DNA of 64,000 nt from Mycobacterium sp. DL440 (GTDB taxonomy: Bacteria; Actinomycetota; Actinomycetes; Mycobacteriales; Mycobacteriaceae), in NCBI RefSeq assembly GCF_011745145.1, contig NZ_CP050191.1, positions 4,847,433-4,911,432 on the forward strand, given 5' to 3'. Shown piece by piece: positions 9,276 through 47,879 of the stretch. The translations under genes were made by a program, and so were the position numbers. A model generated the notes under the pieces. That model was not told the DNA's origin, searched no databases, and saw nothing but the letters and a program-made list of their open reading frames with translations. Every line of letters begins with the position of its first letter. Position 1 is the stretch's first letter.

Positions 9276-9276
9276 A

Positions 9277-10365: not shown

Positions 10366-10492
10366 CCTGGTTCATGGGGGCGTCACGGATCTAGACCACC
10401 GCGCCGCCGCGAACTCATCGCGCCGACACCGGCACTGTGTCGCGCATACTGGGTAGCCACAAACTGCCCAGTCCACGCTCAGATCCGGATCC

Positions 10493-11566
10493 ATGCTGCT
10501 ACCTGTCATGCCGCCCGTCTCGCCGATGCTGGCCAAGCCTGCGACGGTGATCCCACCGGACGCGTCCTACGAGCCGAAATGGGACGGCTTCCGGGCGCTG
10601 GTGTTCCGCGACGGTGGCGAAGTCGAGTTGGGCAGCCGCAACGAACGACCGATGACCCGGTATTTCCCCGAAATCGTCGAGGCAGCCAAGGCCGAGCTCC
10701 CTCCGCGGTGCGTCATCGACGGCGAGATCGTCCTGCCGACCGAGAACGGTCTGGATTTCGAGGCGCTGCAACTACGCCTGCACCCCGCGGCATCCCGGGT
10801 GCGCCTGCTGGCTGAACAGACCCCGGCCTGCTTCATCGCCTTCGACCTGCTCGCGCTCGAGGACGACGACCTCGCGGGGCGCCCGTTCAGTGAACGTCGC
10901 GCCGCCCTGGTCGACGCACTGGGGGCCGGTCCCTCGTTTCATGTCACCCCGGCCACCACCGATCTGCCGACCGCGCGGCGCTGGTTCGACGAATTCGAGG
11001 GGGCCGGGCTCGACGGGCTCATCGCCAAACCGCTCACGCTGACCTATCAGCCCGACAAACGGGTGATGGTGAAGATCAAGCATCAGCGGACCGCCGACTG
11101 CGTGGTCGCCGGCTATCGGCTCCACAAGTCGGGCCCGGACGCAATCGGGTCGCTGCTGCTGGGGCTCTACACCGATGACGGCGAGCTGGCGTCCGTCGGC
11201 GTGATCGGCGCCTTTCCGATGGAACGACGCCGGGACCTGTTCACCGAATTGCAGCCGCTCGTCACCAGTTTCGACAACCACCCCTGGAATTGGGCGGCCC
11301 AGGTTGCCGCCGACCCGGACCTCGCCCGTCGATACGGCGGCGGCTCACGCTGGAACGCGGGCAAGGACCTGTCCTTCGTGCCGTTGCGCCCCGAGCGCGT
11401 TGTCGAAGTTCGCTACGACCACATGGAAGGTCGACGTTTCCGACACACCGCCCAGTTCAATCGATGGCGGCCCGACCGCGACCCCGGGTCCTGCACGTAC
11501 GACCAGCTCGAGCAGCCAGTTACGTTCCGGCTCAATGATATTGTTCCGGGTCTGCTTCCCGGCTAG
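10493..11566 (+). CDS. ATP-dependent DNA ligase, LigC type (copy 2)
   Basis: A 357-residue paralogue of the divergent ligase. Motif I is YEPKWDGFRAL with Lys29, motif IV LDGLIAKPL, motif V VKIKHQRTADCVVAGY, and the C-terminal OB domain ends NRWRPDRDPGSC. All catalytic lysines look intact. It differs from copy 1 by an insertion in the OB domain (about 255-295, DNHPWNWAAQVAADPDLARRY region). M. smegmatis is known to carry adjacent LigC1 and LigC2. Its 3' end overlaps the convergent downstream gene by 3 bases. Confidence 0.92.
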   Translation: MLLPVMPPVSPMLAKPATVIPPDASYEPKWDGFRALVFRDGGEVELGSRNERPMTRYFPEIVEAAKAELPPRCVIDGEIVLPTENGLDFEALQLRLHPAASRVRLLAEQTPACFIAFDLLALEDDDLAGRPFSERRAALVDALGAGPSFHVTPATTDLPTARRWFDEFEGAGLDGLIAKPLTLTYQPDKRVMVKIKHQRTADCVVAGYRLHKSGPDAIGSLLLGLYTDDGELASVGVIGAFPMERRRDLFTELQPLVTSFDNHPWNWAAQVAADPDLARRYGGGSRWNAGKDLSFVPLRPERVVEVRYDHMEGRRFRHTAQFNRWRPDRDPGSCTYDQLEQPVTFRLNDIVPGLLPG

Positions 11567-12417
11567 TAGTGGTCCGCCGGCTGCAACCAGGTGGCGAGAT
11601 TGCGAACGTAATCCTTGAACACACCCAGACGGGATGGATCAGCCCCGATCTGCCAGCCGGGCCTATCGGTCACAAACGAAGGCGCCCCGTGTGGCAAATC
11701 CCAGTTGTAATCGGCGAAGTGGTGGAACGTCGACTCCGCCACGGCCCGCCCCATCAGTCCGCCCTCCGGCGTGCGCTCACCGTCGAGTGCCACCGCGAGA
11801 TTGAACTGTCGGCCGGTCGCGGCGCTGCGCCCCTGAGCCACCGCCGTCGCGAACGGTACCCGGGCCGAGACCGCACCCTCGTGAGGGTGCGCCGGGAACC
11901 ACTCGATGCGGCCGGTGGCGGTCCGGGAGGTACGCAGCAGCTGGTGCACCGGCTCCTCCATCAACACCGGCTGATAGTCACCGTTGGCGCCGGAATGATA
12001 GTTGGGCCACGAGATGCCCGGGTTGTCCTGGTCATCGCAGCGCGACACCGGGTCCAAGCTGGCGTCGTGGAACTCGTTGACCTGCCCCAACGAGCCCAGT
12101 CCCCGCAGGCAGCTGCCCAGGTCCTGATGATCACGGGCGGTGAGCACCCCGCCACCGAGGCCGCGGAACTTGCCGATCGCCGCGCACTCCTCGGGCGTCA
12201 GACCGTTGCCGACGTCGACGGCCATCAACCACAGCTGGTCGAACCCAAGCTCGTCGAGATGGCTGAGCACCGGATCCTGCGCACCGTGATCGGCCCGGTT
12301 GCGGGCCAGCACATCGTGGCCGTCGGCTCGCAGTTCAGCGGCCAGCATCGAGAATCGGCTGACATCCCAATCGTCGGGATTCTCGGTGATCGTGGTCTGC
12401 AACAGGATTGTCGCCAT
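11563..12417 (-). CDS. Conserved hypothetical protein, possible glutamine-amidotransferase-like/ThuA-like fold
   Basis: A 284-residue cytoplasmic-looking protein (no signal peptide or membrane segment). The pattern (MATILLQTTI start, DQLWLMAVD strand, EECAAIGKF helix, GGGVLTARDHQDLG turn) resembles class I amidotransferase/ThuA-like sandwiches, but no catalytic Cys-His pair is evident. I use the ATG at 12417 (GAAAGG 6 nt upstream) rather than the upstream extension to 12465. Function unknown; the fold call is tentative. Confidence 0.7.
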   Translation of the reverse strand: MATILLQTTITENPDDWDVSRFSMLAAELRADGHDVLARNRADHGAQDPVLSHLDELGFDQLWLMAVDVGNGLTPEECAAIGKFRGLGGGVLTARDHQDLGSCLRGLGSLGQVNEFHDASLDPVSRCDDQDNPGISWPNYHSGANGDYQPVLMEEPVHQLLRTSRTATGRIEWFPAHPHEGAVSARVPFATAVAQGRSAATGRQFNLAVALDGERTPEGGLMGRAVAESTFHHFADYNWDLPHGAPSFVTDRPGWQIGADPSRLGVFKDYVRNLATWLQPADHY

Positions 12418-12531
12418 TCGGACCGGCCTTTCGCATCGGGCTATGCGATTCAGCGTGGTCGCCACGGCGCCATTCAGGACCCTTGAAAACCCGTGGTCTG
12501 GAGTCGCCGAGATGTTAGGTGTCGCGCGACA

Positions 12532-15333
12532 CTAACTGCTCCACGAGACGGAGCGCAGCTGCCGGCGGGACCGCACACCGAGCTTGACGAAGACCTTGCG
12601 CAGGTGCCATTCGACGGTGTGGGTGCTGATGAACAACTGCGCACCGATCTCCTGATTGGTCAGGCCGTCGCGGGCCAGCTGCGCGATCTGCGCCTCCTGC
12701 GCGGTCAATTCGTCGCCCGAAGCCAGCGGTTGTTTGCGTACCTTCTCGCCGGTCGCCGTCAGCTCGCGGCGAGCCCGCTCGGCGAAGGTTTTTGCCCCCA
12801 TCTTGGTGAACATGTCGTAGGCGACATTGAGGTGCTCCCGCGCTTTGGTGCGCTGCTTCTGGCGACGCAACCATTCCCCGTACCGCAGATGCGTCCGGGC
12901 CAACTGCACCTGAGCCCGGCTGCGGCCCAGCCGCTCGATCGACTCCTTGAACAACACGTCGGCCTCGCTATCGTCGGCCAACAGGGCCCGCGCACCGGCG
13001 AATACGCCCAGCCCCCAATCGGTTCCGCTGGCCCCTGCTCCGGCCTCCAGTCGGCGTACGGCGTCCTCGGCGACTTCCCGCTCGCCGACGCGCACGGCGG
13101 CCTCGGTCAGCTCAAGCAGGGTCCAACCGTAGAACCCGAGATCGTGGTACTCGCAGGCTTTCCGGGCCGCGGCCAGTGCTTCGTCATAACGGCCCAGACC
13201 GTTGCAGAGCACTGCGGCGGCATACCCGGTGACCCCCAGCAGCCGGCCCTCACCCTTGGCGGTGCCCTCGGCCACGCCTGCCTCGATGAGGTCACCCGCC
13301 TCGGTGACATCTCCACGCAAAGCTGCCAGCTCCACCTTGTGGTACTTCATCGGGTGGTGACCGATGGCCTTCGAAATCGTATCGGCCTCTTCCATAAGCC
13401 TTGCCGCCGCCACGAATTCGCCTTCCAGCACGTGCGCACCGGCCTTGTAGGTGATAGCCGGAGCCAGGATCGCGAGGGCTCCTGCGGTTCGGGCGTAGTC
13501 CACCATGGTGGTGGCCAACTGATCGTTCGACTCGAAATCCCACATCTCACCGGCCACCGATTCGTGCATGATCGGGAACGCCAATGCCAACCAGTGCAGT
13601 GCCCTCCCGTCGTGGCTCCGCGCCTGCTCAGCCCACAACTCCAGTGCGGTACGCAGGTAATCGACCGCGGTGGGCAGGCCTTCGGTAACCAACTTCGCCA
13701 TGCCGATGAGCAGAAAATCGATGGCTCGCGTCGGCTCGGCGATCCCGGAAACCGCCGCTCGTGCGGCCTCTGCCGCGTTCACCAGGGCATCCGGCTGGCT
13801 GCGCGACGCATACATCGCGGCAGCCAACGCCTCGATGTAGGTCTCCCGGGCGAGCTCGTCGTCGAGGTTCTCCAACCGCTTCGCAGCGTCGAGCAACAAC
13901 GCGGCGGCATGGCGGACCGGCGGCGCGCCTGGTAGACCGCCCCGGCTGCGGGTGAATTCCATCTGCGCACGCAGCCGGCCTACCTGGGCCCGCTGCAGCT
14001 CGGTCAACGGATTCAGTTCGGCCAGAGAGAGCAGTTCGTAGGCAGCTTCGGGGGCCGCCGCCTCACGTTTGGCCGCCGCGGCCGCGATCGCCCGGGAGCT
14101 GCGCAGGGCCGGATCGGCCGACAGGATCGCCGCCCGCTCGAGGAAGGTCGCCGCGGCGGCGATTCCGCCTCGGCTCTGGGCACGCCATGCCGAGGCTTCC
14201 AGTTCCGCGGCCACCTCGTCGTCGGGACCGGTCGCGGCGTTCGCCGCATGCCAGGCCCGGCGGTCCGGATCGAGCTCGGGGTCGGTGGCAACGGCCAAGG
14301 CGCGGTGCACTTCCCGGCGGTCGGTTGCGTCGGCCGACCGGTAGGCAGCCGACCGGACCAGAGGGTGGTGAAAGCGAATGCGTGACCCGAACTCGATCAC
14401 CCCGGCGGCCTCGGCCGGTGCCAGCGCATCTATGCCGATCCCCAAATGCCCTGCGGCACGGGAGAACAGCATCGGATCGCCGAGCGGATCGGCCGCGGCG
14501 AGCAGCACCAGCCGCCGGGTGTCGTCAGGCAGCGACTGGATGCGGCGGACGAATCCTTCCTCCACATGACCTACCGACAAGTGCGCCGGGCTGAGCCAGA
14601 AACCACCGGCCAGCTCGGCAGCCGGCACGTTACGCGGAATCTCCAGCAGTGCCAGCGGGTTCCCGCGGGTTTCGGCGACGACACGGTCGCGGACCCGCGC
14701 GTCGAGCCGGCCCAGGAAGACCGAGTCCAGCAGATCCCTGGCATCGCTGTCCGACAGGCCCTCGACCCGTAGCTCGGGGAGACCGGGCAGCACATCGGTG
14801 GCACCGTCGTAGCCATCGCGCACCGCGAACACCAGCACCACCGGCTCGGCCAGCAGCCGCCGTGCAACAAAGCCCAGGGTCTGCACTGACACCTGATCGA
14901 GCCACTGCGCATCGTCGATCACACACAGCAGTGGCTTGTTGTCGGCCGCGGCGGCCAACAGACTGAGCACGGCCAGGCCGACCAGAAAACGATCCGGTAC
15001 CGGGCCGATGCCACGACCGAATGCCACTGAAAGCGCGTCGCGCTGCGGTTCGGGAATCTTGTCAAGTTTGTCCAGCAGCGGTGTGCACAGGTGATGCAAC
15101 CCGGCGAAGGCCAGTTCCATGTCGGACTCGACCCCGGCCACCTGAGTCACCCGGAACCCCGGCGCGTGTTCGACCACATAGTCCAGCAGCGCCGTCTTCC
15201 CGACGCCCGCCTCGCCACGAACCACCAGTACCGCGCTGCCGCCCGAACGGCCACCGGATACCAGTGTTCGAAGTGCCGCGCATTCGCTGGCGCGGCCGAG
15301 TAAAGACAGGCCTGCGCCCACAATCGCCATCAC
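12532..15333 (-). CDS. Large ATP-binding LuxR-family regulator (LAL/MalT-like)
   Basis: A 933-residue protein. An N-terminal P-loop ATPase (Walker A GEAGVGKT at 40-47; Walker B-like LLCVIDDAQWLD near 135-146) is followed by a long helical TPR-like region and a C-terminal LuxR helix-turn-helix (about 865-925; LTAQEAQIAQLARDGLTNQEIG). These STAND-type activators couple inducer and ATP binding to oligomerisation and transcription. The carboxylesterase gene lies upstream on the same strand with a 90-bp gap, and the target genes are not evident. Confidence 0.9.
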   Translation of the reverse strand: MMAIVGAGLSLLGRASECAALRTLVSGGRSGGSAVLVVRGEAGVGKTALLDYVVEHAPGFRVTQVAGVESDMELAFAGLHHLCTPLLDKLDKIPEPQRDALSVAFGRGIGPVPDRFLVGLAVLSLLAAAADNKPLLCVIDDAQWLDQVSVQTLGFVARRLLAEPVVLVFAVRDGYDGATDVLPGLPELRVEGLSDSDARDLLDSVFLGRLDARVRDRVVAETRGNPLALLEIPRNVPAAELAGGFWLSPAHLSVGHVEEGFVRRIQSLPDDTRRLVLLAAADPLGDPMLFSRAAGHLGIGIDALAPAEAAGVIEFGSRIRFHHPLVRSAAYRSADATDRREVHRALAVATDPELDPDRRAWHAANAATGPDDEVAAELEASAWRAQSRGGIAAAATFLERAAILSADPALRSSRAIAAAAAKREAAAPEAAYELLSLAELNPLTELQRAQVGRLRAQMEFTRSRGGLPGAPPVRHAAALLLDAAKRLENLDDELARETYIEALAAAMYASRSQPDALVNAAEAARAAVSGIAEPTRAIDFLLIGMAKLVTEGLPTAVDYLRTALELWAEQARSHDGRALHWLALAFPIMHESVAGEMWDFESNDQLATTMVDYARTAGALAILAPAITYKAGAHVLEGEFVAAARLMEEADTISKAIGHHPMKYHKVELAALRGDVTEAGDLIEAGVAEGTAKGEGRLLGVTGYAAAVLCNGLGRYDEALAAARKACEYHDLGFYGWTLLELTEAAVRVGEREVAEDAVRRLEAGAGASGTDWGLGVFAGARALLADDSEADVLFKESIERLGRSRAQVQLARTHLRYGEWLRRQKQRTKAREHLNVAYDMFTKMGAKTFAERARRELTATGEKVRKQPLASGDELTAQEAQIAQLARDGLTNQEIGAQLFISTHTVEWHLRKVFVKLGVRSRRQLRSVSWSS

Positions 15334-36588: not shown

Positions 36589-36929
36589 CGCAACAGACCC
36601 CGCCGGGCATAGACCGCGGCGGCCTGCCGCACCAGTTCCGCGCAGCGCGCGGCACCGCGGGTTTCCAGCGATGCCTGCAACGCGTCGAGTTCGGCGGCGG
36701 TGGAGCGGTGCGGGCGCAGCGCCTCGTACAGGCCCATCACCTCTTCATCGTCGATGACCGCCAATTCCGCTGCACGCAGGAAGTTCTCGGCCAGCTGGGG
36801 GTTGCCGCTCTCCTCGGCGACGACGGCCTGGTGCGCCAGCGCCGCCGGGTCCATCCGCAGATCCGACAGATCCAGCTTGCCGTCGACGGCGGCCTGCACT
36901 GAAAAAGTCCGGGCGAACTTGTCCGTCAT
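36585..36929 (-). CDS. Diol dehydratase small subunit (PduE/DhaB3-like), short form
   Basis: A 114-residue helical protein containing the family core: LRMDPAALAHQAVVAEESGNPQLAENF, then a conserved ELAVIDDEEVMGLYEALRPHRST stretch. Typical PduE is about 170 residues, so this version lacks most of the N-terminal extension (which in enterics aids shell targeting and solubility). It overlaps both neighbours by 4 bases (ATGA type), indicating coupled translation with the fused large/medium subunit and the reactivase. Confidence 0.87.
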   Translation of the reverse strand: MTDKFARTFSVQAAVDGKLDLSDLRMDPAALAHQAVVAEESGNPQLAENFLRAAELAVIDDEEVMGLYEALRPHRSTAAELDALQASLETRGAARCAELVRQAAAVYARRGLLR

Positions 36930-39187
36930 TTCCGCCTCACCTCCACCGTGACGGGCGCCTGGCCCGGCTCGCTGGCCTCCCGCTCCAACGCGACCAGCGC
37001 CACCGCGCGGGCGTGGTAGCGCGCCGAGATTGATTCGTCGGTACCGCCGGTGAGGATCGGCACCGGCGCCATGCCCTTGGCGTGACGGGCGGCATTGCGG
37101 CCCAGTTCCCGGTAATTCCTGGCGGTCAGCAGAGGTGCCACACTAAACAGCTCGAGGTTCGCCAGCGGCGCCAGGTCCCGACGGTGGATGAGCGCGGTCC
37201 CCTTGCCCTGCAACCCGATTCCAATGCCCGACCCGGACAGCTTGGCGGCGGTCAGACCGATCAGCCCGACATCGATGGTCGAGCGCACCCGCACGAACCG
37301 TGGCACACAGCCCTCTTCTTCGAGGCCGGCGCAGAGTTGACGGATCACCTCGCCGATCGGCAGGCCGCACAGGCTCAGCCACACACTGCGGCCCAGCGCG
37401 GGTGACAACCCGATGACCACCTCGCGCGGATCGTTGCCCTGCCGGGCAGGTTCGAGGTCGGTGACGCTGATGTGGCCGGCATGCTCGGCCTGGTCGGCGG
37501 TGAGCTCGGTGCCGCTGCGCTGCTGGCGGATGTTGTCGATCTCGGCCCGGCGCGCCTCGGTCAGGGTGTAACCCGTTCCGGGCCCGCTGTAATCGTTCGG
37601 ATCGGTGATCTTGGACAGCACCCGGAACTGCTCGTCGAAGATCGCCGAGGTCTGCAACTGGTCGCCGCGCAGACGTTCGGATGTCAGCCGCATGATGGCC
37701 TCGGCCTCCTCGTCGTAGCCGGTGCGCTTCAGGGAGGCCACCACGTCGAACACCGTGAGCTGCTTGGCCTCGATGGCACTGGCCGCTTCCGCGACGGCCT
37801 TTGGATCCCCCGGCGGCAGATCGCGCGACCCGTTGGCGATCACCACCTCCTCGATGTGGCCGTCGTCGAAGTCCGCCAGCCCCAGGTCGCGGTACACCGC
37901 CTGCACGGCCGTCGCCGCCCTTCGGCGTACTGCGGCCAGGTGTTCGGCCGACACCGTGCGCAAACCGCCGTCCGCCCCCCAATCCCGTTGCAGCACAAGG
38001 AAATCATCCATGTCGTCGGAGTTGAAGTTGGACAGCGCGAACGCATTGTCGTAGCGCGGGATCGACCCGAACCCGGAGAAGATGAAATCAGCGCCGGCCA
38101 GCAACACGGGCAGAGTGTGCGCGCTGCGGCGAATATCGGATTCGGAGATCAGGTTGTCGTTGCCCGCACACGACTCCAGATCCCGCATCATCACCATAAG
38201 GTTCTCGGCGAGCAGCTCCTTCATGCCCTCGGGCACCGAGGCCACTACACCGACCCCGTCGATGCCGCCGTTCTGCACGCCCTGGGATCCCAGCGCCCGG
38301 GCCAGCGACACGCAGCGCGATTCCAGGTAGAGGATGGAGCACTTCTCGGCCGCACCCATCAGCACCTCGGCCCCGCCGCCGCTGGTGACCCGCATCTTGA
38401 GGCCGCGCGACGCGTAAGCGCTCGTCAGGATCGCCTTGGAGAACGGGGTGTCGTCGCCGTCGACGAACACCTGCTCGGTGCCGTAGATGGAAATGGTCTC
38501 GGCGTAGCTGGTCAATCCGCGCATACCGAGGCGTAGTTCCAGCGCCTCCTCGATCGCGCACTGCGCCATCGCGCCCGGTGTTCCCACCTGCGAACCGATC
38601 AGCAGCGCAACGGCATTCGAGGCCGCATCCCCGAGCACCGGCACCGTCGTCTCGACCTCGCGGAACCCGTAGGCCACCGCGCTGGCGGCGTCGGCGGCGA
38701 TCAGCATCGGATCGTCCAGCTGGTTGGTGACGTGAGCCTGATTGCTCGGGGTGCGCCGGGCCCGCATCTTGGCCATCGCCATCTGTATCTCGACCGGCGT
38801 CAGTACCGCGATGACGTGCGCGAGTTTAGCCGGCGTCGTACCGCCGATGAGCCGGACCACCTCGGCCCGGGGCACGTTGGGATCCACCGTCTTGCGGGCC
38901 AGTTCGACATCGGAGCACGCCATGGCCTCGGCCGCGACGTCGAGATCCAGGCCGTAGTGGGCGATGAACTCGTCGATCACATCGAAGTCGGCGGCGACCT
39001 TGCCGTCCATCTCGACGACCCGACCGTCGCGCAACACCAGCGACGGTTCCGGATCGTGCGGGCTGCGCATCGCGACCAGCCCCAGATCCGGATTGGTCAC
39101 GCTGAACCCGTCGAGGTTCACCGGCTTCCCGTCGAGAATCCGCATCCTGCCCAGGTAGGCACCGCCGTCGTCCGTCACGCCGACCAT
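36926..39187 (-). CDS. B12-dependent diol dehydratase, fused large and medium subunits
   Basis: A 753-residue fusion. About 1-560 is the PduC-type TIM-barrel large subunit with conserved catalytic residues: His152 (QAHVTNQ), Glu179 (EVETTV) and Glu230 (SYAETISIYGTE), matching Klebsiella His143, Glu170 and Glu221. About 590-753 is the PduD-type medium subunit (VVIGLSPALGRSVW, GSGIGIGLQGKG). It converts 1,2-diols or glycerol to aldehydes with adenosylcobalamin. Separate subunits are usual. It lies 46 bp after the acyltransferase gene, possibly on one transcript. Confidence 0.92.
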   Translation of the reverse strand: MVGVTDDGGAYLGRMRILDGKPVNLDGFSVTNPDLGLVAMRSPHDPEPSLVLRDGRVVEMDGKVAADFDVIDEFIAHYGLDLDVAAEAMACSDVELARKTVDPNVPRAEVVRLIGGTTPAKLAHVIAVLTPVEIQMAMAKMRARRTPSNQAHVTNQLDDPMLIAADAASAVAYGFREVETTVPVLGDAASNAVALLIGSQVGTPGAMAQCAIEEALELRLGMRGLTSYAETISIYGTEQVFVDGDDTPFSKAILTSAYASRGLKMRVTSGGGAEVLMGAAEKCSILYLESRCVSLARALGSQGVQNGGIDGVGVVASVPEGMKELLAENLMVMMRDLESCAGNDNLISESDIRRSAHTLPVLLAGADFIFSGFGSIPRYDNAFALSNFNSDDMDDFLVLQRDWGADGGLRTVSAEHLAAVRRRAATAVQAVYRDLGLADFDDGHIEEVVIANGSRDLPPGDPKAVAEAASAIEAKQLTVFDVVASLKRTGYDEEAEAIMRLTSERLRGDQLQTSAIFDEQFRVLSKITDPNDYSGPGTGYTLTEARRAEIDNIRQQRSGTELTADQAEHAGHISVTDLEPARQGNDPREVVIGLSPALGRSVWLSLCGLPIGEVIRQLCAGLEEEGCVPRFVRVRSTIDVGLIGLTAAKLSGSGIGIGLQGKGTALIHRRDLAPLANLELFSVAPLLTARNYRELGRNAARHAKGMAPVPILTGGTDESISARYHARAVALVALEREASEPGQAPVTVEVRRK

Positions 39188-39233
39188 TTTGCGTGACGAA
39201 CGCTATTTGGTCTACCCATTACTCCTTTTGGTG

Positions 39234-40589
39234 TCAGGCGCCGGACGCGACCTCCAGTGCCTTGAGCGAGTCCTCCAGATGGCTGAGCATCCGCTGCAGA
39301 TGCGGCACACTGCGCCGGCAGCCGACCAGCCCGAAATCCAGGTTGTCGGCGTTGTTGGCCAAGGTGATGTTCATCGCCTGCCCGTCCAGCGCGATCGACA
39401 ACGGGTAGTTGCCGTCCAGCCGAGCTCCCTTCCAGTACAACGGATGTCGTGGCCCGGGCACGTTGGAGATGACCAGATTGAATGGCGGCGAGGTGGCCCC
39501 GACGAAACCGGGCACAGCAGCCAGGCCGAGCGGCGCGATCATCATCGCCGACAGGGCCAGAGCCTGCACCCGCGGCAGGTCGGAGAACACCTTCTTGTTG
39601 CCCCGCATCGACTCAGCGACCGCGTTGAGCCGATCGGCCGGATCCTCCAGATCGGTACCCAGATTGCACAGCACGGAGCCGACCAGATTGCCTCCTGAGT
39701 CGGCCTCGTGCTCGGCGCGCAGGCTCACCGGCACCATCGCGATCAGCGGCCGATCCGGCAGCGCGTCCTGTTCCAACAGATAGGCGCGCAAGGCGCCGGC
39801 ACACACCGCCAGCACCACATCGTTGATCGTGAATCCGGCCGCCCGCGAAATCCGCTTGAACCGCTCCAGCGGCCAGGACTGCGCCGCGACGCGGCGGGCG
39901 CCACCGATCTTCACGTTGAACATGGTCTTGGGAGCCGCGAACGGCAGCGTCAGTTGTTGTTCCAGCAGCGCCGAGCGGGCCAGCCGCAGAGTCGACGGCG
40001 CCAGCCCCGCGACCGCGCCGACCGCATCGGAGGCGGTTCGTAGCAGCGACGAACTCTGGTGCGCCCGCTTCTTGCGCGGCATCGCCCACGGCACCCGCAC
40101 GTCGATGTCATCGGGATCTTCCGACAGCGTGCGCATCAACAACTTTAGTGCCGAGACCCCGTCGATCAGCGAATGGTGCATCTTTGTGTAGACCGCGAAC
40201 CGACCGTCCGCCAGCCCCTCGATCAGGTGTGCCTCCCACAGCGGACGATGCCGGTCGAGCAGACTGCCGTGCAGCCGTGACGTCAGCTCCAGTAGATCCC
40301 GCACCCGACCCGGGGACGGCAGCGCCGAGCGGCGCACGTGATAGTCGAGGTCCACGTCGTTGTCGAAGGTCCAGCCGATGTTGGCGAAGCCACCCAGGAC
40401 CGTGGCCGGGCGTTTGCGGAATACCGGTTCGATGTCGGTGTGGCTGAGCAACTCCTCGTGGAACTCACGCATGAATTCCAGGCCCACACCTGCCGGAGGC
40501 TCGTAGAGCGCGAGGCCGCCGACGTGGAACGGGTGCTCCCGTGTCTCGGCGATCAGAAACATCGAATCGGTTGGCGACATCAGCTCCAT
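39234..40589 (-). CDS. tgs2: Wax ester synthase/diacylglycerol acyltransferase (Tgs2-like)
   Basis: A 451-residue WS/DGAT. The catalytic HHxxxDG motif is HHSLIDG (His138, His139, Asp143). The N-terminal MSPTDSMFL and C-terminal NVPGPRHPLYWKGARL (the PLW-like block) are standard. It makes triacylglycerol or wax esters from acyl-CoA at the inner membrane. The position near ligC fits Rv3734c/tgs2 by gene order. I use the ATG at 40589; TTG at 40601 is a longer alternative. It is divergent from the peroxidase operon with about 120 bp between. Confidence 0.88.
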   Translation of the reverse strand: MELMSPTDSMFLIAETREHPFHVGGLALYEPPAGVGLEFMREFHEELLSHTDIEPVFRKRPATVLGGFANIGWTFDNDVDLDYHVRRSALPSPGRVRDLLELTSRLHGSLLDRHRPLWEAHLIEGLADGRFAVYTKMHHSLIDGVSALKLLMRTLSEDPDDIDVRVPWAMPRKKRAHQSSSLLRTASDAVGAVAGLAPSTLRLARSALLEQQLTLPFAAPKTMFNVKIGGARRVAAQSWPLERFKRISRAAGFTINDVVLAVCAGALRAYLLEQDALPDRPLIAMVPVSLRAEHEADSGGNLVGSVLCNLGTDLEDPADRLNAVAESMRGNKKVFSDLPRVQALALSAMMIAPLGLAAVPGFVGATSPPFNLVISNVPGPRHPLYWKGARLDGNYPLSIALDGQAMNITLANNADNLDFGLVGCRRSVPHLQRMLSHLEDSLKALEVASGA

Positions 40590-40711
40590 GGACACATTCA
40601 ACGCGGATCCGCACGAGGCCGTGCGAAAACAGGTAGCCGACTACGCGTTCGCCCGCCCTGAACAAGCCGCACGATCTAACCACAGCCGACTCGTCGAATG
40701 GAGGTGTCAGG

Positions 40712-41122
40712 ATGCTGATCCCAACGGCAGCGCGCAAAACCTTGGCAGTGATCCGAATCCTCAACGGCGCGATGGGATTGCTCGCCCCCGAAAAGCTGCT
40801 GGGCCGCCTCGGCGTCGACACGGCTCAGGATCGGTCCGGCGCCTATCCCTTCCGGATGTTCGGCATCCGCACCGTTCTCATCGGCCTTGATCTGTTGCTG
40901 CTCCGTGGAGCCGAACTGCGTCGGGCCGAAAAACTCGCGGTGCTCATCCACGCGGCCGACACCGTCTCTGCCACCGTCACCGCCGCCCGCGGTGACCTGC
41001 CCCGCAAACAGGGCCTGATGGCCGTCGTCATCTCCGCGATCAACACCACACTTGCCGTCACCGCATGGAAAGGAGGCCAGGATGCCGTCACTGCTCACGA
41101 GGTGGTTCCTCAAAGCCACTGA
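40712..41122 (+). CDS. Small multi-helix membrane protein, first gene of peroxidase operon
   Basis: A 136-residue protein with about three hydrophobic segments (about 13-30, 50-66 and 100-117) separated by charged loops. GGAGGTG lies 5 nt before the ATG. It resembles small DUF4267-like membrane proteins of actinobacteria but I do not claim a family. The downstream peroxidase gene starts inside its 3' end (41-base overlap), so the two are co-translated and probably work together. Confidence 0.72.
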   Translation: MLIPTAARKTLAVIRILNGAMGLLAPEKLLGRLGVDTAQDRSGAYPFRMFGIRTVLIGLDLLLLRGAELRRAEKLAVLIHAADTVSATVTAARGDLPRKQGLMAVVISAINTTLAVTAWKGGQDAVTAHEVVPQSH

Positions 41123-42872
41123 GGTCGTCGACCGCCGGATCGGGTGGGACAAACTCCCACCCTGGCTCGGACTCAGCGTCCTGTTGGGGGTTCGCGACGC
41201 ACTGCGCGAACACAACCTCTACGACACGTACCGGGGCAACCCCCCGGCGGCGCCGAGCCACACCCCGGCCGAATACCTCACCGTCCGGACGGTCGACGGC
41301 TCCTACAACGACCTGTCCGCCCCTTCGATGGGTATGGCCAAGACCCGGTTCGGCCGCAACGTTCCGCTCGACAAGGGGCAGGCCGAGACGCCACCGCACC
41401 TGATGGACCCCAACCCGCGCACCATCAGCAACGAGTTGTTGCGCCGCGACACGTTCAAGCCGGCCGCCACGCTCAACATCCTGGCGGCGGCCTGGCTGCA
41501 GTTCGAGACCCGCGACTGGTTCAGCCACGACACCGACCCCAGCCGGATGATCGAGATCCCGGTGCCCGAGGGCGACGACTGGGACGAGACCACCATCCGG
41601 ATTCCGTCCACGCCAGCCGACCCGAACCCAACACCCGGCGAGACGACCTTCCTCAACACGGAGACCCATTGGTGGGATGCGTCGCAGATCTATGGCAGCA
41701 ACCAGCTGTTCCAGGACGCGATCCGTACGCAGAACACGGACGACGGCAAGGTACGCATCGACGCCGACGGTTTCATCGACCTGGATCCGTCGATGCTCGG
41801 CGCCTCCGGAGGTGCCGACGGCTGGTGGCTCGGCCTGGAGCTCATGGGCACGATCTTCCTGCGGGAACACAACGCCATCTGCGACCGGCTGAAGGCCGCC
41901 TACCCGACCTGGACCGGCGACCAGATCTTCAACAAGGCGCGCATGATCAACGCCGCACTGATCGCCAAGATCCACACCATCGAGTGGACCCCGGCGATCC
42001 TCGGCCACCCGACGCTGCAGATCGGTATGCGGGCCAACTGGTTCGGGCTCGCCGGCGAACGCGTCAAGCAGCTGTTCGGACGGATCAGCCCCAGCGAGGC
42101 GATCAGCGGCGTCGTCGGATCGGCCACCGATCACCACACCGCGCCGTACTCCATCACCGAGGACTTCGTCACCGTCTATCGCATGCACCCACTGGTGCCC
42201 GACGACTACGAGTTCCTCAACCTCGCCGGAAATGCCGAGCCGCAGCAGCTTTCGTTCGACAGCATCCACGGCGGCGCCAACTCGCGCGGCGTGCTCAAGA
42301 GCGTGGGGCTCTCGAACTGCATCTACTCGCTGGGCGTCGCACACCCCGGCGCGGTCACCCTGCACAACAGTCCCAACTTCATGCGCCGCTTCGACCGCAC
42401 CGACGGCCACGTCATCGACATGATCTCGACCGACATCATCCGCTCCCGCGAGCGGGGAGTGCCGCGCTACAACGAGTTCCGCCGCCAGCTGCGGTTGAAT
42501 CCGGCGACATCGTTCGATGAGATCAGCGGCGGGGACCGCGACACTGCCCTCAAGATGAACAAGATCTACGGCGGTGACATCGAGAAGGTCGACGCCATGG
42601 TCGGCATGTTAGGCGAGAAACTCCCGAAGGGTTTCGGGTTCAGCGACACGGCGTTCCGCATCTTCGTCCTGATGGCGACCCGACGGCTCAAGAGTGACCG
42701 GTTCTTCACGGTCGACTTCACGCCGCGGGTCTACACACCGGAGGGCATCGCCTGGATCGCCGACAACGACATGTGCTCGGTGCTCATCCGGCACTATCCC
42801 GAGCTCGAACCGGTGCTGCGCGAACAGCGCAACGCATTCGCACCGTGGCCGCGCCTGAGTCAGGAACGATGA
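41082..42872 (+). CDS. Animal-type haem peroxidase, alpha-dioxygenase/cyclooxygenase-like
   Basis: A 596-residue protein of the peroxidase-cyclooxygenase superfamily. The catalytic Tyr and proximal haem His are Tyr366 and His369 in VYRMHPL, as in COX (YHWH) and plant alpha-dioxygenase. HWWDASQIYGSNQ (196-208) matches the alpha-dioxygenase substrate region. The distal segment reads WLQFETRDW: Gln140 is kept, but the distal-His position appears to be Arg144. Likely reaction is oxygenation of fatty acids to hydroperoxides. The ATG at 41082 has AAAGGAGG upstream. Confidence 0.87.
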   Translation: MPSLLTRWFLKATEVVDRRIGWDKLPPWLGLSVLLGVRDALREHNLYDTYRGNPPAAPSHTPAEYLTVRTVDGSYNDLSAPSMGMAKTRFGRNVPLDKGQAETPPHLMDPNPRTISNELLRRDTFKPAATLNILAAAWLQFETRDWFSHDTDPSRMIEIPVPEGDDWDETTIRIPSTPADPNPTPGETTFLNTETHWWDASQIYGSNQLFQDAIRTQNTDDGKVRIDADGFIDLDPSMLGASGGADGWWLGLELMGTIFLREHNAICDRLKAAYPTWTGDQIFNKARMINAALIAKIHTIEWTPAILGHPTLQIGMRANWFGLAGERVKQLFGRISPSEAISGVVGSATDHHTAPYSITEDFVTVYRMHPLVPDDYEFLNLAGNAEPQQLSFDSIHGGANSRGVLKSVGLSNCIYSLGVAHPGAVTLHNSPNFMRRFDRTDGHVIDMISTDIIRSRERGVPRYNEFRRQLRLNPATSFDEISGGDRDTALKMNKIYGGDIEKVDAMVGMLGEKLPKGFGFSDTAFRIFVLMATRRLKSDRFFTVDFTPRVYTPEGIAWIADNDMCSVLIRHYPELEPVLREQRNAFAPWPRLSQER

Positions 42873-43342
42873 TGACGCGCCCCGAGCCGGAGCTGAGCCG
42901 AGGGGCAGCGCTCGACGAGTCGCTGTTGCTCGGCTACCCCAACAGCGCGTTGGACCTGCTGTTCCGGCAGTCGGAGGCCGGGCCCATCCCCGACGGGGAC
43001 ACCCGGGGCACGCTGCTGGCCTGGCCCGGGACCTGGCTGGCCAAGCCACTTGCCCTGCTGGTCCGCGTGATCATCTGGCAGGGCAAGGTGCTCGACCGTC
43101 GCGAGGGGGTGCTGCGCAACAAAGTCACCCCGTTTGGTCTGCGGCTTGTCAAGGCCCGGCTCTCGATCGCATCGAGCTGGGTAGACAGCGGTGACTGCGT
43201 GCTCATCGACTACTCAAAGACGTCGTTCCTGGCCCGCATGGTCCGCGACGAGATCCGCCAGGTCGGTCCCGGCTTCTACCTCGGGGTCGTATGGCTGTGG
43301 CGGAAACGCGTCGGGTGGTTCACCATTCGCTCGACCGGGTGA
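42869..43342 (+). CDS. Unrecognised protein of the peroxidase operon
   Basis: A 157-residue protein. Its ATG overlaps the stop of the haem peroxidase (42869-42872). Features: Pro/Glu-rich start, central GTWLAKPLALLVRVIIWQGKV and a C-terminal half with DCVLIDYSKTSFLARMVRDEI and GPGFYLGVVWL. The pattern is vaguely like lipocalin-fold GXWXG/DUF4334 proteins, one of which starts at 63770 in this window, so binding of a lipid or other hydrophobic ligand is possible. No catalytic motif is seen. Confidence 0.68.
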   Translation: MMTRPEPELSRGAALDESLLLGYPNSALDLLFRQSEAGPIPDGDTRGTLLAWPGTWLAKPLALLVRVIIWQGKVLDRREGVLRNKVTPFGLRLVKARLSIASSWVDSGDCVLIDYSKTSFLARMVRDEIRQVGPGFYLGVVWLWRKRVGWFTIRSTG

Positions 43343-43347
43343 TCGCG

Positions 43348-44709
43348 ATGCCACACCAGGAAGCGTTCACGGTGCTCGCCGAGGTCAGCGCAGATCGGCT
43401 GGCCTCGCTACGGGACCTGCTCGGACGCATCCCCGACCACGTCGAGCGGTGGGACGTGCTGCCGTTCGAGCAGTTGAGTGGTCTGCACTTCGCCAGGCTC
43501 GTACTCTTCGACCCGGCCCAGGATCTCGACGGGCGCCCGGTGCCCGCCCAGCTGGGGTTGTTGACCGACGTCGACGCCCCACTGCGCGGACATCTCGACG
43601 AACTCACGACGATCGGCGGCGACGGGATCGACGCGGTGTTCTCCCACTGCGTCGGCTATCCGGACGTGCCTTCGGCACCTATGCGGCAGGCGTTTCTGCA
43701 GGAACACCAAGTGAAAGCCGCTGCGGCACATATCAACCGGAGAGGTCGCTCGGTCAGCCAGATCCGGCAGGAGGATCTGCTGCAGCGCGAGATCAACCGG
43801 TTCCTGGACTCCGGCGACTTGGGTTCGCTCGACACCGGGAAGATCAAGTGCGCGATCGTCGACTTCGTGCGCGACCGCGACGACCTGGCCTGGGCGCTGA
43901 AACAGGCGGAGGGGCCGTCCCTGTCGTGGCGGGCCAAAGAGGCTTTCCACCAGTACTTCTGGATCGCCACACTGGCGGTGATGACGGTGCTGTTCTTCCC
44001 GTTGGTGCTGCTGGGGCTCGGACTGTTCGTCCTTGCGCTGCGCCACCACGAGAAGCGCGATATCCCCGACACCCGTGGGGCCGCACCCGAGGTGGTTCGG
44101 GCCTATCGCGACGACGAGGACTACTGGGTGCACAACCAGATCGTGGCCATCGGATTCCTCAAACCCGGGCCGTTCCGCCGGCTGACCACGACCGCGATCC
44201 TGTTCCTCACCGACTACGCGACCCGCCACATCTACAACCGCGGAACCCTGTCGGGGCTCAACACAATTCATTTCGCCCGATGGGTGCGGATGAACGAGGG
44301 CCGCGGCCTGTTCTTCTCCAGCAACTACGACGGCAGCCTGGAGAGCTACATGAACGACTTCATCGACAAGGCGTTCTGGGGGCTCAACGCCATCTTCAGC
44401 AATGGCGACGGTTTCCCGCGCACACGATTCCTGTTCTTCGGCGGCATCACCGACGAGAAGGCGTACAAGAAGCTGCTGCCTACCCGTCAAGCCCCGAGCA
44501 ATGTCTGGTACAGCGCCTACCCGCACCTGACCACCAAGAACATCGCCAACAACGAAGCCATCCGGCGGGGCCTCTCGACCAAGATGGACGAAGCCCAGAC
44601 GCGGCGTTGGCTGCGCCGATTCGGTTCCGGCAACGATCTTCCCGAATCCAACTGGGCGGCCCGCAAACTGGACAGCATCCCCTGGGACCGGCTATGGCTC
44701 TCCAACTAG
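43348..44709 (+). CDS. Unrecognised two-lobed protein with central membrane helix, linked to DyP peroxidase
   Basis: A 453-residue protein. An N-terminal lobe (about 5-190) and C-terminal lobe (about 245-440) flank one strong membrane segment (203-231). Both lobes carry a similar strand-helix pattern: GLHFARLVLFD...LLTDVDAPLRGHLDEL and TIHFARWVRM...FFSSNYDGSLESYMNDF, suggesting ferredoxin-like folds. No haem-ligand motif of DyP enzymes is evident. I start at ATG 43348 (GGTGAT upstream); ATG 43291 overlaps the previous gene by 52 bases. Its end overlaps the DyP gene by 16 bases. Confidence 0.75.
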   Translation: MPHQEAFTVLAEVSADRLASLRDLLGRIPDHVERWDVLPFEQLSGLHFARLVLFDPAQDLDGRPVPAQLGLLTDVDAPLRGHLDELTTIGGDGIDAVFSHCVGYPDVPSAPMRQAFLQEHQVKAAAAHINRRGRSVSQIRQEDLLQREINRFLDSGDLGSLDTGKIKCAIVDFVRDRDDLAWALKQAEGPSLSWRAKEAFHQYFWIATLAVMTVLFFPLVLLGLGLFVLALRHHEKRDIPDTRGAAPEVVRAYRDDEDYWVHNQIVAIGFLKPGPFRRLTTTAILFLTDYATRHIYNRGTLSGLNTIHFARWVRMNEGRGLFFSSNYDGSLESYMNDFIDKAFWGLNAIFSNGDGFPRTRFLFFGGITDEKAYKKLLPTRQAPSNVWYSAYPHLTTKNIANNEAIRRGLSTKMDEAQTRRWLRRFGSGNDLPESNWAARKLDSIPWDRLWLSN

Positions 44710-46109
44710 ACGACATCCAGGGCGTGATCCTGCATGGCTACGGCGCACTGGACGACGCGGCGTTCCTACTGCTGACGATCGACGACGTCGCGGCGGCCAA
44801 GCGATGGCTGTCAGGCTTGGAGTTGCGCGACAGCACAATCCGGCCCGAAGGTACCGATACCTGCACCAACATCGCCTTCACGCCGTCAGGTCTGGCGCGG
44901 CTGGGGCTGCCACCCGAACACCTGGCAATGCTGGCAGGCGAGTTTCGTGAAGGTATGACCGGCACCGAGCATCGCCGCCGCATCCTCGGCGATCACGGTG
45001 ACAGCTGCCCGTCGGGCTGGCGCTGGGACGGCGAGGACATTCACGCGCTGCTACTGCTCTACGGGCACGACTCCGCCGCCGTCGCCGAACTGGAGAACAG
45101 TCACGACCTGCCCGGCTCCGGACTGCACATCGTCCAGCGACTCGATTCGCTGACGCTGCCAGGACGCAAGGAGCACTTCGGTTTTCGTGACGGTATCTCG
45201 CAACCGCTGATCGACGGCTACGACGAGGGCGGTCCGGTGGGCAACACCGTGGCGGCGGGCGAGTTCGTGCTCGGCTATCCGAACGCCTACGGGCAGTACA
45301 CCGACCGGCCGCTGGTGGACCCGACCGCCGACACTCGGGGACTGTTGCCCGCGGCGGCCGATGCACCGGCACTGCGCGACCTCGGCAAGGACGGCAGCTA
45401 CCTCGTCTTCCGCCAACTCAAACAGGACGTGGCGGCGTTCTGGAACAGCCTGGCCGAGCGGTCCGGCGATGTGCTCGACCGCGTGCCGGCCTGTGTCGGG
45501 CTGGCGGCCAAGATGGTGGGCCGATGGCCCAGCGGTGCACCGCTGGTGAAAGCACCGACCATCGACGATCCTGCACTCGCCGACGACAACGACTTCATGT
45601 ACTTCCGCTCCGAGGATCCCGACGGCCTGAAATGCCCGATTGGCTCACACCTGCGGCGGTCCAATCCGCGTGATGCGCTCGATCCCGTTCCCGGATCCGA
45701 CCGGTCTATCGACGTGGGCAAGCGTCACCGAATCATCCGTCGCGGCAGGGCCTACGGGCCGCCGTTGGCGCCGTCGATGGACGCCGCCGACATGATCGGC
45801 GCAGCTGACGACGGCATCGAGCGCGGTCTGCATTTCATCTGTTTCAACACCCAACTCGGGCGGCAGTTCGAGTTCATCCAGCACACCTGGGTCAACAGCA
45901 CCAAGTTCGACGGCGGGTACGCCGAGGACGATCCGATCACCGGCGCCCGCGGCAATGGAAACGGAACCGGGAACGGGACTTTCACGGTCCAGCAGGAACC
46001 GATTCGCCGACGCGTCACCGGGCTGCCCCGCTTCGTCCACACCGTCGGCGGCGCCTACTTCTTCATGCCCGGTGTGGCCGCCACGCGCTACCTCGCAGCG
46101 CTGCCATGA
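44694..46109 (+). CDS. DyP-type haem peroxidase
   Basis: A 471-residue dye-decolourising peroxidase with two ferredoxin-like domains. The distal GXXDG motif is GFRDG with catalytic Asp166. The proximal haem ligand is His319 in GSHLRRSNPRD. The length and the large insert (about 170-300) suit the longer DyP classes rather than the short encapsulin-cargo type. It lacks a Tat signal, so it is cytoplasmic unless carried by a partner. The start overlaps the upstream two-lobed protein by 16 bases, and its stop overlaps the DoxX-like remnant. Confidence 0.9.
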   Translation: MALQLDDIQGVILHGYGALDDAAFLLLTIDDVAAAKRWLSGLELRDSTIRPEGTDTCTNIAFTPSGLARLGLPPEHLAMLAGEFREGMTGTEHRRRILGDHGDSCPSGWRWDGEDIHALLLLYGHDSAAVAELENSHDLPGSGLHIVQRLDSLTLPGRKEHFGFRDGISQPLIDGYDEGGPVGNTVAAGEFVLGYPNAYGQYTDRPLVDPTADTRGLLPAAADAPALRDLGKDGSYLVFRQLKQDVAAFWNSLAERSGDVLDRVPACVGLAAKMVGRWPSGAPLVKAPTIDDPALADDNDFMYFRSEDPDGLKCPIGSHLRRSNPRDALDPVPGSDRSIDVGKRHRIIRRGRAYGPPLAPSMDAADMIGAADDGIERGLHFICFNTQLGRQFEFIQHTWVNSTKFDGGYAEDDPITGARGNGNGTGNGTFTVQQEPIRRRVTGLPRFVHTVGGAYFFMPGVAATRYLAALP

Positions 46110-46350
46110 GCGCCTGGCGGGAGTGGGCTCCGCTGCCTCTGCGGCTGTTCCTCGGCGGCGGGCTCATCCTGCACGGAGGGATCAAACTGTTCGCGACCGG
46201 CGGGCACGCCAACATCGCCTACCTCGTGGGTCAGCTCGGGGTGTTCTTCCGGCTCGCGACGGTGGTCAACGCGCTCAACGTCGCCGGTCTCTTGGTGCTC
46301 GGGTGGGCCGCGCACCATCCCGGTGCTGCGGTTGTCGCCCGAGCCGCGGA
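46106..46350 (+). pseudogene. Decayed DoxX-like membrane protein gene
   Basis: The frame starts ATGAGC overlapping the DyP stop and encodes a DoxX-like first helix (LPLRLFLGGGLILHGGIKLFATGG), then AYLVGQLGV. It then jumps to FFRLATVVNALNVAGLLVLGW without the usual second helix and Glu-containing segment, consistent with an internal in-frame deletion. Beyond about 46330 the frame runs antisense through the TetR gene to 46726 with no DoxX features. I read it as an inactive remnant; a functional short protein is possible. Confidence 0.55.
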
Positions 46351-46351
46351 C

Positions 46352-46909
46352 CTAGCGGCTGCGCTGGTAGATGTCTGTGGCGATCGCGATGGCGGTCTCG
46401 TTGCACTGCTCATCGGTGAGCGGCAGATCGCCCATCATGGCCACGCTCCACGAGATGGTCAACAGCGCCTGCCGGGCGTGATAGACCGCAACCGGATCGT
46501 GGTCGGGCGCGGTCATGGCGTCGGCCACGGTGCGGAACTGGTAGCGCAGGTCAGCTCCTACCCCCAGCCGGTTGAACGCCGCATAGTTCTCGTGCATGAA
46601 CCGCGTCATGGCCCGACCGGTGCCGTGGAGGACAGTGCCGTACCGTCGCAGCACCTCGCGTCCGGTGTCCTTGCCCGGCGGCTGACCGGCGGCCCAGCGC
46701 AGGATCTCGTCCACACCGGTGCGTAGGTCGTCGGCGAGACTCGCCACGATGTCTTCTTTTGCCGGGAAGTGGTAGTAGACAGCGGCTTTTGTGATCCCGA
46801 GGCGCTCGGCGATCTGCCTGATCGAGGTCTGGTCGTAGCCATGGACGGAGAACAGTTCGAGCGCCACGGCACGGATCTTGTCGCGGGTATCGGTCCGTCG
46901 CCCTGCCAT
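46352..46909 (-). CDS. TetR-family transcriptional regulator
   Basis: A 185-residue protein with an N-terminal helix-turn-helix (about 27-50, SIRQIAERLGITKAAVYYHFPAKEDIV). The ATG at 46909 has GGAAGGGG 5 nt upstream; the frame extends to 46936 but would run into the operator. It is divergent from a methyltransferase gene across a 106-bp gap holding CATTACTT palindromes. It is probably an autorepressor that also controls the methyltransferase. Confidence 0.86.
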   Translation of the reverse strand: MAGRRTDTRDKIRAVALELFSVHGYDQTSIRQIAERLGITKAAVYYHFPAKEDIVASLADDLRTGVDEILRWAAGQPPGKDTGREVLRRYGTVLHGTGRAMTRFMHENYAAFNRLGVGADLRYQFRTVADAMTAPDHDPVAVYHARQALLTISWSVAMMGDLPLTDEQCNETAIAIATDIYQRSR

Positions 46910-46921
46910 CGACACCCCTTC

Positions 46922-46992
46922 CATTACTTGACGCACGGCAAGGGATGAGCTTAGCGTGGGTCACACCATTACTTACCGGCCGTCAAGTAATG
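46922..46992. promoter_or_regulatory. Operator palindromes between TetR and methyltransferase genes
   Basis: A 26-bp near-palindrome CATTACTT-N10-AAGTAATG lies at 46967-46992, with extended arms approximating CATTACTTGACGG. A third half-site, CATTACTTGACG, is at 46922-46933 just before the TetR start. Two sites flanking both start codons suit dual repression. Confidence 0.7.
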
Positions 46993-47015
46993 AATACGCC
47001 ACATCGGGGGGATCA

Positions 47016-47879
47016 ATGAACAGATCACAGCTGACCACAACCCTGACCGGGCCGCCGCTCACCGCCGTCGGGGTCGCCGTCATCCGGGCCCGAGAAACCG
47101 CACGAGATGACCGGCTCTACGCCGATCCGTACGCCGCCCGCTTCGTCGCAGCAGCACAGGAGGCTTACCTCGACCCCACCGCACCCGAGGGCGCCGCCAA
47201 CACCTGGGCAACGGTGATGCAGTTGGCCGAAGTGATGTACGAAACCCGCACGATCGGCGTCCGCATCGTCGACGACGCCCTCACCGAAGCCGCAGCGGCC
47301 GGGCGCCCGCAGATCGCGTTGATCGGTGCCGGGCTGGACACCCACGCGTTTCGGCTGACCTGGCCTGGACCCGTCAACCTTTTCGAGATCGACCTGCCCC
47401 AGCTGTTCGCATTCAAGGAACCACTCCTGCGCGACGCCGTCGCGACGTGCGAACGTCACGTCATCGAAGCCGACCTCGCCGCCGGCGACTGGCCGGACGC
47501 GCTGGTGGCCAACGGGTTTGATCCCGCGATCCCCACGCACTGGGTCGACCACGCACTGATGACACTGCCGACGGCTGCGGCTCGCGCCGGGGTCGAGTCG
47601 ATCACGCGGCTGTCCGCGCCCGGCAGTCGGTACGGATATCCCACGATGGGCAGCCAGAGCTTCAGCACCACCCTGAAATCGGTGACCGGTGCCGCGGACC
47701 TGTATCGGAGCATGTCCAACGTCGACCGCGGGCTCGGTGACGACGCCCGGCAATGGATCGAAACCCTGGGATGGTCAACGTCTTTCACCAGCTTCGCCGA
47801 ACTTGCCGCGAGCTATCCCCGCACCATCGGCGCAGAGACCGGCAGCGGAACCGTCACGGCCACGCGTTTGGAGGCCTAG
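47016..47879 (+). CDS. SAM-dependent methyltransferase, mycobacterial PF04072 family
   Basis: A 287-residue class I methyltransferase of the large mycobacterial family related to leucine carboxyl methyltransferases. The SAM-binding glycine motif is IALIGAGLDTHAFRL (about 105-119) with the following acidic LFEIDLPQLFAFK. The family EGLLMYL block is degenerate here (WVDHALMTLP), so activity or substrate may differ. The ATG at 47016 follows GGGGGA; the frame upstream covers the operator. Members methylate polyketide- or lipid-type acids, mostly uncharacterised. Confidence 0.85.
   Translation: MNRSQLTTTLTGPPLTAVGVAVIRARETARDDRLYADPYAARFVAAAQEAYLDPTAPEGAANTWATVMQLAEVMYETRTIGVRIVDDALTEAAAAGRPQIALIGAGLDTHAFRLTWPGPVNLFEIDLPQLFAFKEPLLRDAVATCERHVIEADLAAGDWPDALVANGFDPAIPTHWVDHALMTLPTAAARAGVESITRLSAPGSRYGYPTMGSQSFSTTLKSVTGAADLYRSMSNVDRGLGDDARQWIETLGWSTSFTSFAELAASYPRTIGAETGSGTVTATRLEA

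Follow-up and report, generated by a model that had tools for sequence, protein, structure and literature searches.

Plant and cyanobacterial alpha-dioxygenases add O2 at C2 of fatty acids (PMC13049297), and aldehydes one carbon shorter, as well as hydroxy acids, arise downstream of these enzymes (PMC9305512). Sequences of this family are present in five bacterial phyla (Kim et al., PMC8720084); the passages of that paper on alpha-dioxygenases do not mention the partner genes C, D and E described below, and the word "operon" is absent from its main text. In Nostoc punctiforme, a catalase-related hydroperoxide lyase acts on the product of 10S-DOX, another dioxygenase of the cyclooxygenase superfamily (PMC13049297), and a coral catalase-related enzyme is fused to a lipoxygenase (PMC5617202). 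Here, we analyse a 64,000-nucleotide stretch of Mycobacterium sp. DL440 DNA (the window; contig NZ_CP050191.1, positions 4,847,433 to 4,911,432), from a genome that consists of a single 6.38-Mb contig. At positions 40712 to 46351, it contains six forward-strand genes, labelled A to F, in which an alpha-dioxygenase-type haem protein (B) is combined with a DyP-type peroxidase (E) and with proteins lacking a family name (C and D). On balance, we favour a reading in which the operon specifies a membrane-associated route of bacterial oxylipin or alpha-oxidation chemistry, with fatty-acid hydroperoxides first formed and then processed.

The C-D-E core

Genome contigs were scanned for D by two conserved motifs, giving 92 loci, of which the best 80 were kept and the 12 weaker ones left out; the near-identical Streptomyces loci among the 80 are not independent. 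The phyla represented are Actinomycetota, Pseudomonadota, Acidobacteriota, Chloroflexota and Cyanobacteriota, with single loci of Myxococcota, Thermodesulfobacteriota and Dormiibacterota. Among named species, the closest loci are those of Mycolicibacterium setense, M. septicum and M. wolinskyi. In every one of the 80 loci, D is followed on its own strand by E as the next match, and the distance separating the stretches that fit the two profiles ranges from −15 to 270 nt. At least 600 bases upstream of D are available in 75 loci; C immediately precedes D in 63 of them and is present anywhere in the locus in 71. The search for conserved gene order, set beforehand as a refuting test of the operon proposed in the first-pass annotation, did not refute it: the core is kept across phyla, though in other orders. 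On viral contigs, 29 stretches fitted a pattern, none of them a relative.

The complete order A-B-C-D-E-F is seen only in Mycolicibacterium (the window and loci L003 to L006 and L138). Many Streptomyces loci, that of S. netropsis (L025) among them, have the arrangement C-D-E-X-A-B, X being a catalase-related gene, often with a weakly patatin-like gene added, while Amycolatopsis has B-C-D-E-X. Sedimenticola has a long B, with an N-terminus that looks signal-like by eye, a short X, C-D-E and then X. Several Acidobacteriota loci contain GMC, C-D-E and a gene for a diheme c-type protein, with or without X.

D (43348..44709) starts from an ATG; an alternative start is possible upstream, at 43291, and conservation among homologues begins at 43348. 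The protein has two homologous halves, predicted to adopt a dimeric alpha+beta barrel (ABM) fold in tandem around a membrane segment. It differs from the ABM-fold proteins WhiE-ORFI (9lmn) and 3mcs by this long membrane segment between the halves and by having no Pfam or NCBIfam match. Although D belongs to no named family, its relatives in the database number at least 2892. The N-terminal part of D, on its own, has weak matches (about 20–34 bits) in the window genome at G000:C1:2568198 and 3904480 (L084 and L085) and in 44 genus genomes without full-length D; these may be single-domain relatives. C (42869..43342) is predicted to form a calycin-like beta barrel without a named family, and, like D, had no Pfam or NCBIfam match at E 0.1. 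No plant allene oxide cyclase is among the 50 VIA-align matches listed for C, which excludes nothing. The first-pass annotation counted two membrane proteins in the operon: the assignment is clear for D (hydropathy peak 2.66, for the segment starting at residue 211) and marginal for A (1.61, starting at residue 101), with no peak for C.

E (44694..46109) matches TIGR01413 with 110.2 bits, above the curated cut-off of 100.5. DyP-type peroxidases are characterised by the Asp of a GxxDG motif, a proximal His and a distal Arg. E contains these as D166, H319 and R346, and it aligns with the DyP-type peroxidases 8re3, 7anv and 4au9, presumably of class C/D. Across the set of E sequences, the Asp and the proximal His are kept in 78 of 78 and the distal Arg in 77 of 78. 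What distinguishes E from these three is its place beside D, seen in all 80 D loci.

Alpha-dioxygenase, catalase-related and diheme partners

B (41082..42872, from an ATG) belongs to the An_peroxidase family and was called COX/alpha-dioxygenase-like in the first-pass annotation. It matches plant alpha-dioxygenases with 381 bits over residues 15–590 of its 596, compared to 66 bits over part of the protein for the best cyclooxygenase (COX). B is therefore an alpha-dioxygenase homologue; cyclooxygenase identity is rejected, and the protein is only distantly COX-like. Like the plant and cyanobacterial enzymes (rice 4kvj, Arabidopsis 4hhr, CalDOX and LepDOX), to the plant members of which it is similar over its full length, B keeps key residues. 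By alignment, with the numbering shifted by three to agree with rice H157, H311, H382 and R559, these are the catalytic Tyr and the proximal His (in the motif YRMH) and the equivalents of rice His311 and Arg559. It differs from these enzymes at the distal haem His (H157 of rice), which is Arg in the window. In 49 B sequences, comprising 47 of the 50 B loci, the window and a paralogue, with three short pieces left out, this position is Arg in 30, His in 17 and Lys in 2. Since partial conservation of the distal His within the alpha-dioxygenase family has been published (PMC8720084), we do not take this residue as defining. In 8R-DOX, the H203Q mutation only reduces catalysis, and for certain P450 partners an Asn on the distal side has been predicted by analogy (PMC13049297). 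Like 8R-DOX H203Q, B could therefore still catalyse dioxygenation despite the Arg at its distal position. Two further mycobacterial alpha-dioxygenase relatives (L146 and L147) have Gly at the distal position; their B match starts at residues 154 and 362 of the open reading frame (ORF), respectively.

Partners of the core were counted in the 53 well-flanked loci, which have at least 4 kb upstream and at least 5 kb downstream. X is present in 42, B in 36 and the diheme c-type protein in 11; B or the diheme protein is present in 47 and both in none. Over all 80 loci, the numbers are 59 for X, 50 for B and 15 for the diheme protein. The loci in which B accompanies D vary in arrangement, the B proteins themselves fall into two very different types, and at least seven gains or losses are needed to explain the presence of B on the D tree. 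Judged from these sequences, alpha-dioxygenase has been joined to C-D-E more than once.

In the PDB, the X profile matches only 1u5u and 3dy5, which are coral allene oxide synthase (cAOS), and 3e4w (30–25 bits, E 2.8e-6 to 9.5e-5). The last is entered as a putative uncharacterised protein, which we take to be a mycobacterial catalase-related protein. Two forms of X were compared with Pfam: one matches catalase (32 bits, cut-off 25) and the other matches nothing. None of the readable sequences has lost the proximal Tyr, which is present in all 54 long forms, all nine readable short forms and all seven that are the window genome's own or fused. The distal site, Thr66-His67 in coral cAOS (residue names from PMC5617202) and placed in X by alignment, is Gly-Asn in 54 of 54 long linked X. 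Nine of the 11 shorter linked forms have Asn-Gln there; the remaining two, which have Gly-Asn, are long forms that have been truncated. Ala-His is found in the X of the window genome itself and in six fused ones (7/7). As the Thr66-His67 pair is missing from linked X, we name the protein catalase-related and not allene oxide synthase; coral cAOS retains its distal His67, whereas the C-D-E-linked X have Asn or Gln.

The single X of the window genome, matched in two pieces within one frame, adjoins B2 (L088), the second alpha-dioxygenase of this genome, which is His-type. With the start of X taken at the ATG at 10932 of L088, B2 and X overlap by ATGA. Positions 9016–14795 of this locus (G000:C1:2743000-2762000) contain B2 and X side by side, followed by a protein of 898 residues that, by eye, resembles a LuxR-type ATPase regulator. 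Even sampling of a larger group gave 198 genomes of the genus, of which 43 contain X (39 at E<1e-10) and 55 contain B. By hand count, 30 of the 39 have a B at a distance of up to 400 nt from X (six divergently), eight do not, and G021 has the two on different contigs. In 10 of these 30, also counted by hand, one open frame of 961–1138 residues covers both. All six fusions that were fetched (L140 to L145, from genomes G073, G022, G060, G067, G061 and G131) are single ORFs of 970–1130 residues in which both domains were confirmed, and their alpha-dioxygenases are His-type. As evidence of a link between X and alpha-dioxygenase, the fusions are more direct than gene order.

These pairs resemble the Nostoc punctiforme system in that a dioxygenase of the cyclooxygenase superfamily is paired with a catalase-related enzyme. 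There, however, another dioxygenase oxygenates at C10, and here the core consists of DyP, tandem-ABM and barrel proteins. The coral allene oxide synthase/hydroperoxide lyase group accounts for two of the three weak PDB matches of X; its fusion partner is lipoxygenase, while mycobacterial X is fused to alpha-dioxygenase instead. Among the best matches in the open-licence PMC literature, outside which most subscription papers lie, there was no description of the cluster or of alpha-dioxygenase–catalase fusions.

The diheme c-type proteins, of about 820 residues, adjoin C-D-E (L061, L062, L073, L082 and others), in most cases at loci without alpha-dioxygenase, and GMC oxidoreductases are frequently present as well. 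Their two CxxCH motifs are invariant (9/9); they match NF040606 weakly (29.9 bits, cut-off 150) and nothing in the PDB at 0.001. A relationship to RoxA or to FadCcp of P. aeruginosa, and with it a role as fatty-acid dioxygenases, is a tentative suggestion for these proteins. The lack of any co-occurrence with B in the 53 loci gives a Fisher p of 1.6e-7, and the tree-corrected test, with at most four informative pairs, a median p of 0.25. L070, with a short flank and outside the 53, carries both. Mutual exclusion of the two is therefore no more than a hint.

History of the C-D-E-F cassette and its neighbourhood

The tight packing of five genes plus a decayed DoxX-like gene described in the first-pass annotation agrees with all five junctions: A and B overlap by 41 bases, B and C by ATGA, C and D are separated by 5 nt, D and E overlap by 16 bases and E and F by ATGA. 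A (40712..41122) is a small hydrophobic protein with a weak DUF4267-like match (PF14087, 23.9 bits, below the Pfam cut-off of 27.8). A relative of A is directly upstream of B in just 27 of the 50 B loci, leaving out of the count those A profile matches that overlap X, and we do not consider A a regular partner of B. F (46106..46351) is damaged: in comparison with the 149-residue F of L006, an internal stretch of 25 residues and the C-terminus are missing, and F of six relatives measures 145–154 residues. The L006 protein matches Pfam DoxX with 41.9 bits (cut-off 23.6), while the window F has no DoxX match.

Close relatives of B (76–79%) without full-length D are present in six genomes of the genus. 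In genomes G049 and G124, lacking full-length D, close B relatives (76–77%) have one TAG stop codon inside the match, possibly a sign of decay. The four of the six that were fetched (L134 to L137) have A-B alone. The window aligns with L134 at 39044–42854 and at 46314–47198, and the stretch 42855..46313, bearing C-D-E-F, has no counterpart there, being replaced by 282 other bases. This break in the alignment places C-D-E-F exactly behind B. In a quick tree, Mycolicibacterium D groups with a mainly proteobacterial set of gammaproteobacterial, acidobacterial and cyanobacterial loci (100% support in the Shimodaira–Hasegawa-like approximate likelihood ratio test, SH-aLRT). From quick trees, a single actinobacterial D clade is rejected (approximately unbiased test, p 5.2e-7), the tested group leaving out the two outlying rows L024 and L055. 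The nearest E sequences outside the genus are of the same kind. B groups with short alpha-dioxygenases and apart from the long ones found together with D in L007 and L009. Full-length D was found in three of the 198 genus genomes (the window's, that of L003 and one more) and in one of 396 genomes of the phylum (the window's own), with at most eight and four candidates per genome scored, respectively, the other matches being weak single-domain or partial ones.

Because relatives carry A-B without the cassette, D and E have non-actinobacterial affinity and B groups differently, the simplest explanation is that C-D-E-F was gained directly behind a resident A-B pair; the direction, gain and not loss, is one we infer.

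The divergent neighbour of the operon is a wax ester/triacylglycerol synthase gene, W (39234..40601, reverse strand), as the first-pass annotation had pointed out. W is also beside A-B in three of the four relatives without C-D-E-F, and only four of the 80 D loci have it (L003 to L006). The convergent neighbour, T (46352..46936, reverse strand), encodes a TetR-family regulator; within the fetched stretches it is found in one of the four relatives, L134, a genome without C-D-E-F. Palindromic TTACTTGACG repeats at 46921–46993, between T and a methyltransferase gene, are likely the operator of T itself, and exact copies in the window are found at 46924 and 46981 only. Upstream of A, at 40602–40711, there is no copy with up to two mismatches; a T operator at this site is rejected, and control of the operon by T is thus unsupported. 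Further away, at 36926–39187 on the reverse strand, the large and medium subunits of a propanediol/glycerol dehydratase share one frame of 753 residues.

Proposed pathway and alternatives

The reactions we infer for the proposed hydroperoxide pathway are as follows. B would oxygenate a fatty acid with O2, and homology and the residues kept point to C2 as the most likely site. The barrel protein C, from its predicted fold, may hold the hydroperoxide, or an aldehyde or 2-hydroxy acid derived from it. E and the membrane-anchored tandem-ABM protein D would oxidise or reduce the product further, and E may consume the hydroperoxide made by B. In most other loci, X, with its distal Asn, would act on the hydroperoxide; in the window genome, X belongs to the second locus, beside the second alpha-dioxygenase. 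C-D-E would be the mobile core and the oxygenase exchangeable. The placing of a fatty-acid-oxygenating enzyme beside peroxide-using haem enzymes, proposed in the first-pass annotation, is supported by the alpha-dioxygenase-like B and by the catalase-related X, adjacent or fused to alpha-dioxygenases in many genomes of the genus, but alpha-dioxygenase is not an obligatory member.

Several observations weigh against this pathway. In the 21 genomes searched out of those with the 30 B-less loci, 16 lack any B match (including three Marinobacter, Hahella and Rhizobium), and six of the 11 genomes searched because their well-flanked locus lacks X have no X at all. As B and X are missing from many genomes, only D-E, usually with C, is constant. 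The idea of an exchangeable oxygenase is, on the evidence of the diheme protein, a hint.

A bolder proposal, which we put forward as speculation, extends the pathway. C-D-E might form the centre of a lipid-oxidation system, as yet undescribed, that moves horizontally and occurs in eight phyla, plugging into exchangeable hydroperoxide formers (short or long alpha-dioxygenase, or the diheme c-type protein) and yielding a defined oxylipin. B (with Arg, in many actinobacteria) and X (with Asn or Gln) might then isomerise peroxides and not reduce them, with the barrel and tandem-ABM proteins as binder or cyclase. Such a system could mirror, in bacteria, the logic of jasmonate synthesis, in which an oxygenase, an allene oxide synthase and a cyclase act in turn.

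We consider it improbable that the set serves in defence against lipid hydroperoxides, the DyP and X acting as scavengers in the destruction of peroxidised membrane lipids and B playing a minor part. The recurrence of haem peroxidase and catalase-like genes and the membrane anchor of D would suit such a role, as would the 30 of 80 loci without B and the genomes devoid of it. A likely hydroperoxide-forming partner in 36 of the 53 loci would, however, be odd for pure defence. The distal Asn of all long linked X is unlike catalase, and full-length D is rare in genus and phylum for the candidates scored.

A role in specialised metabolism is likewise doubtful; in such a pathway, a fatty acid or a precursor resembling a polyketide would first be oxygenated, after which C and D, the latter with an ABM fold as in WhiE-ORFI, would cyclise or tailor it. 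ABM folds serve many functions, and no polyketide synthase, non-ribosomal peptide synthetase or carrier protein is among the recurring partner families that were annotated, which are part of the ORF families. Chance, or loose co-regulation of neighbours without a common function, can be rejected as very improbable: the complete six-gene order is seen in Mycolicibacterium only, but E directly follows D in 80 of 80 loci and the association with B recurs.

To our knowledge, the natural substrates of DyP-type peroxidases are largely unknown. The constant pairing of D with a DyP offers a physiological setting for these enzymes. If the hydroperoxide pathway proposed here is correct, many bacteria would possess a pathway dedicated to the production of oxidised fatty acids, one that features natural fusions of alpha-dioxygenase as well as exchangeable oxygenases.

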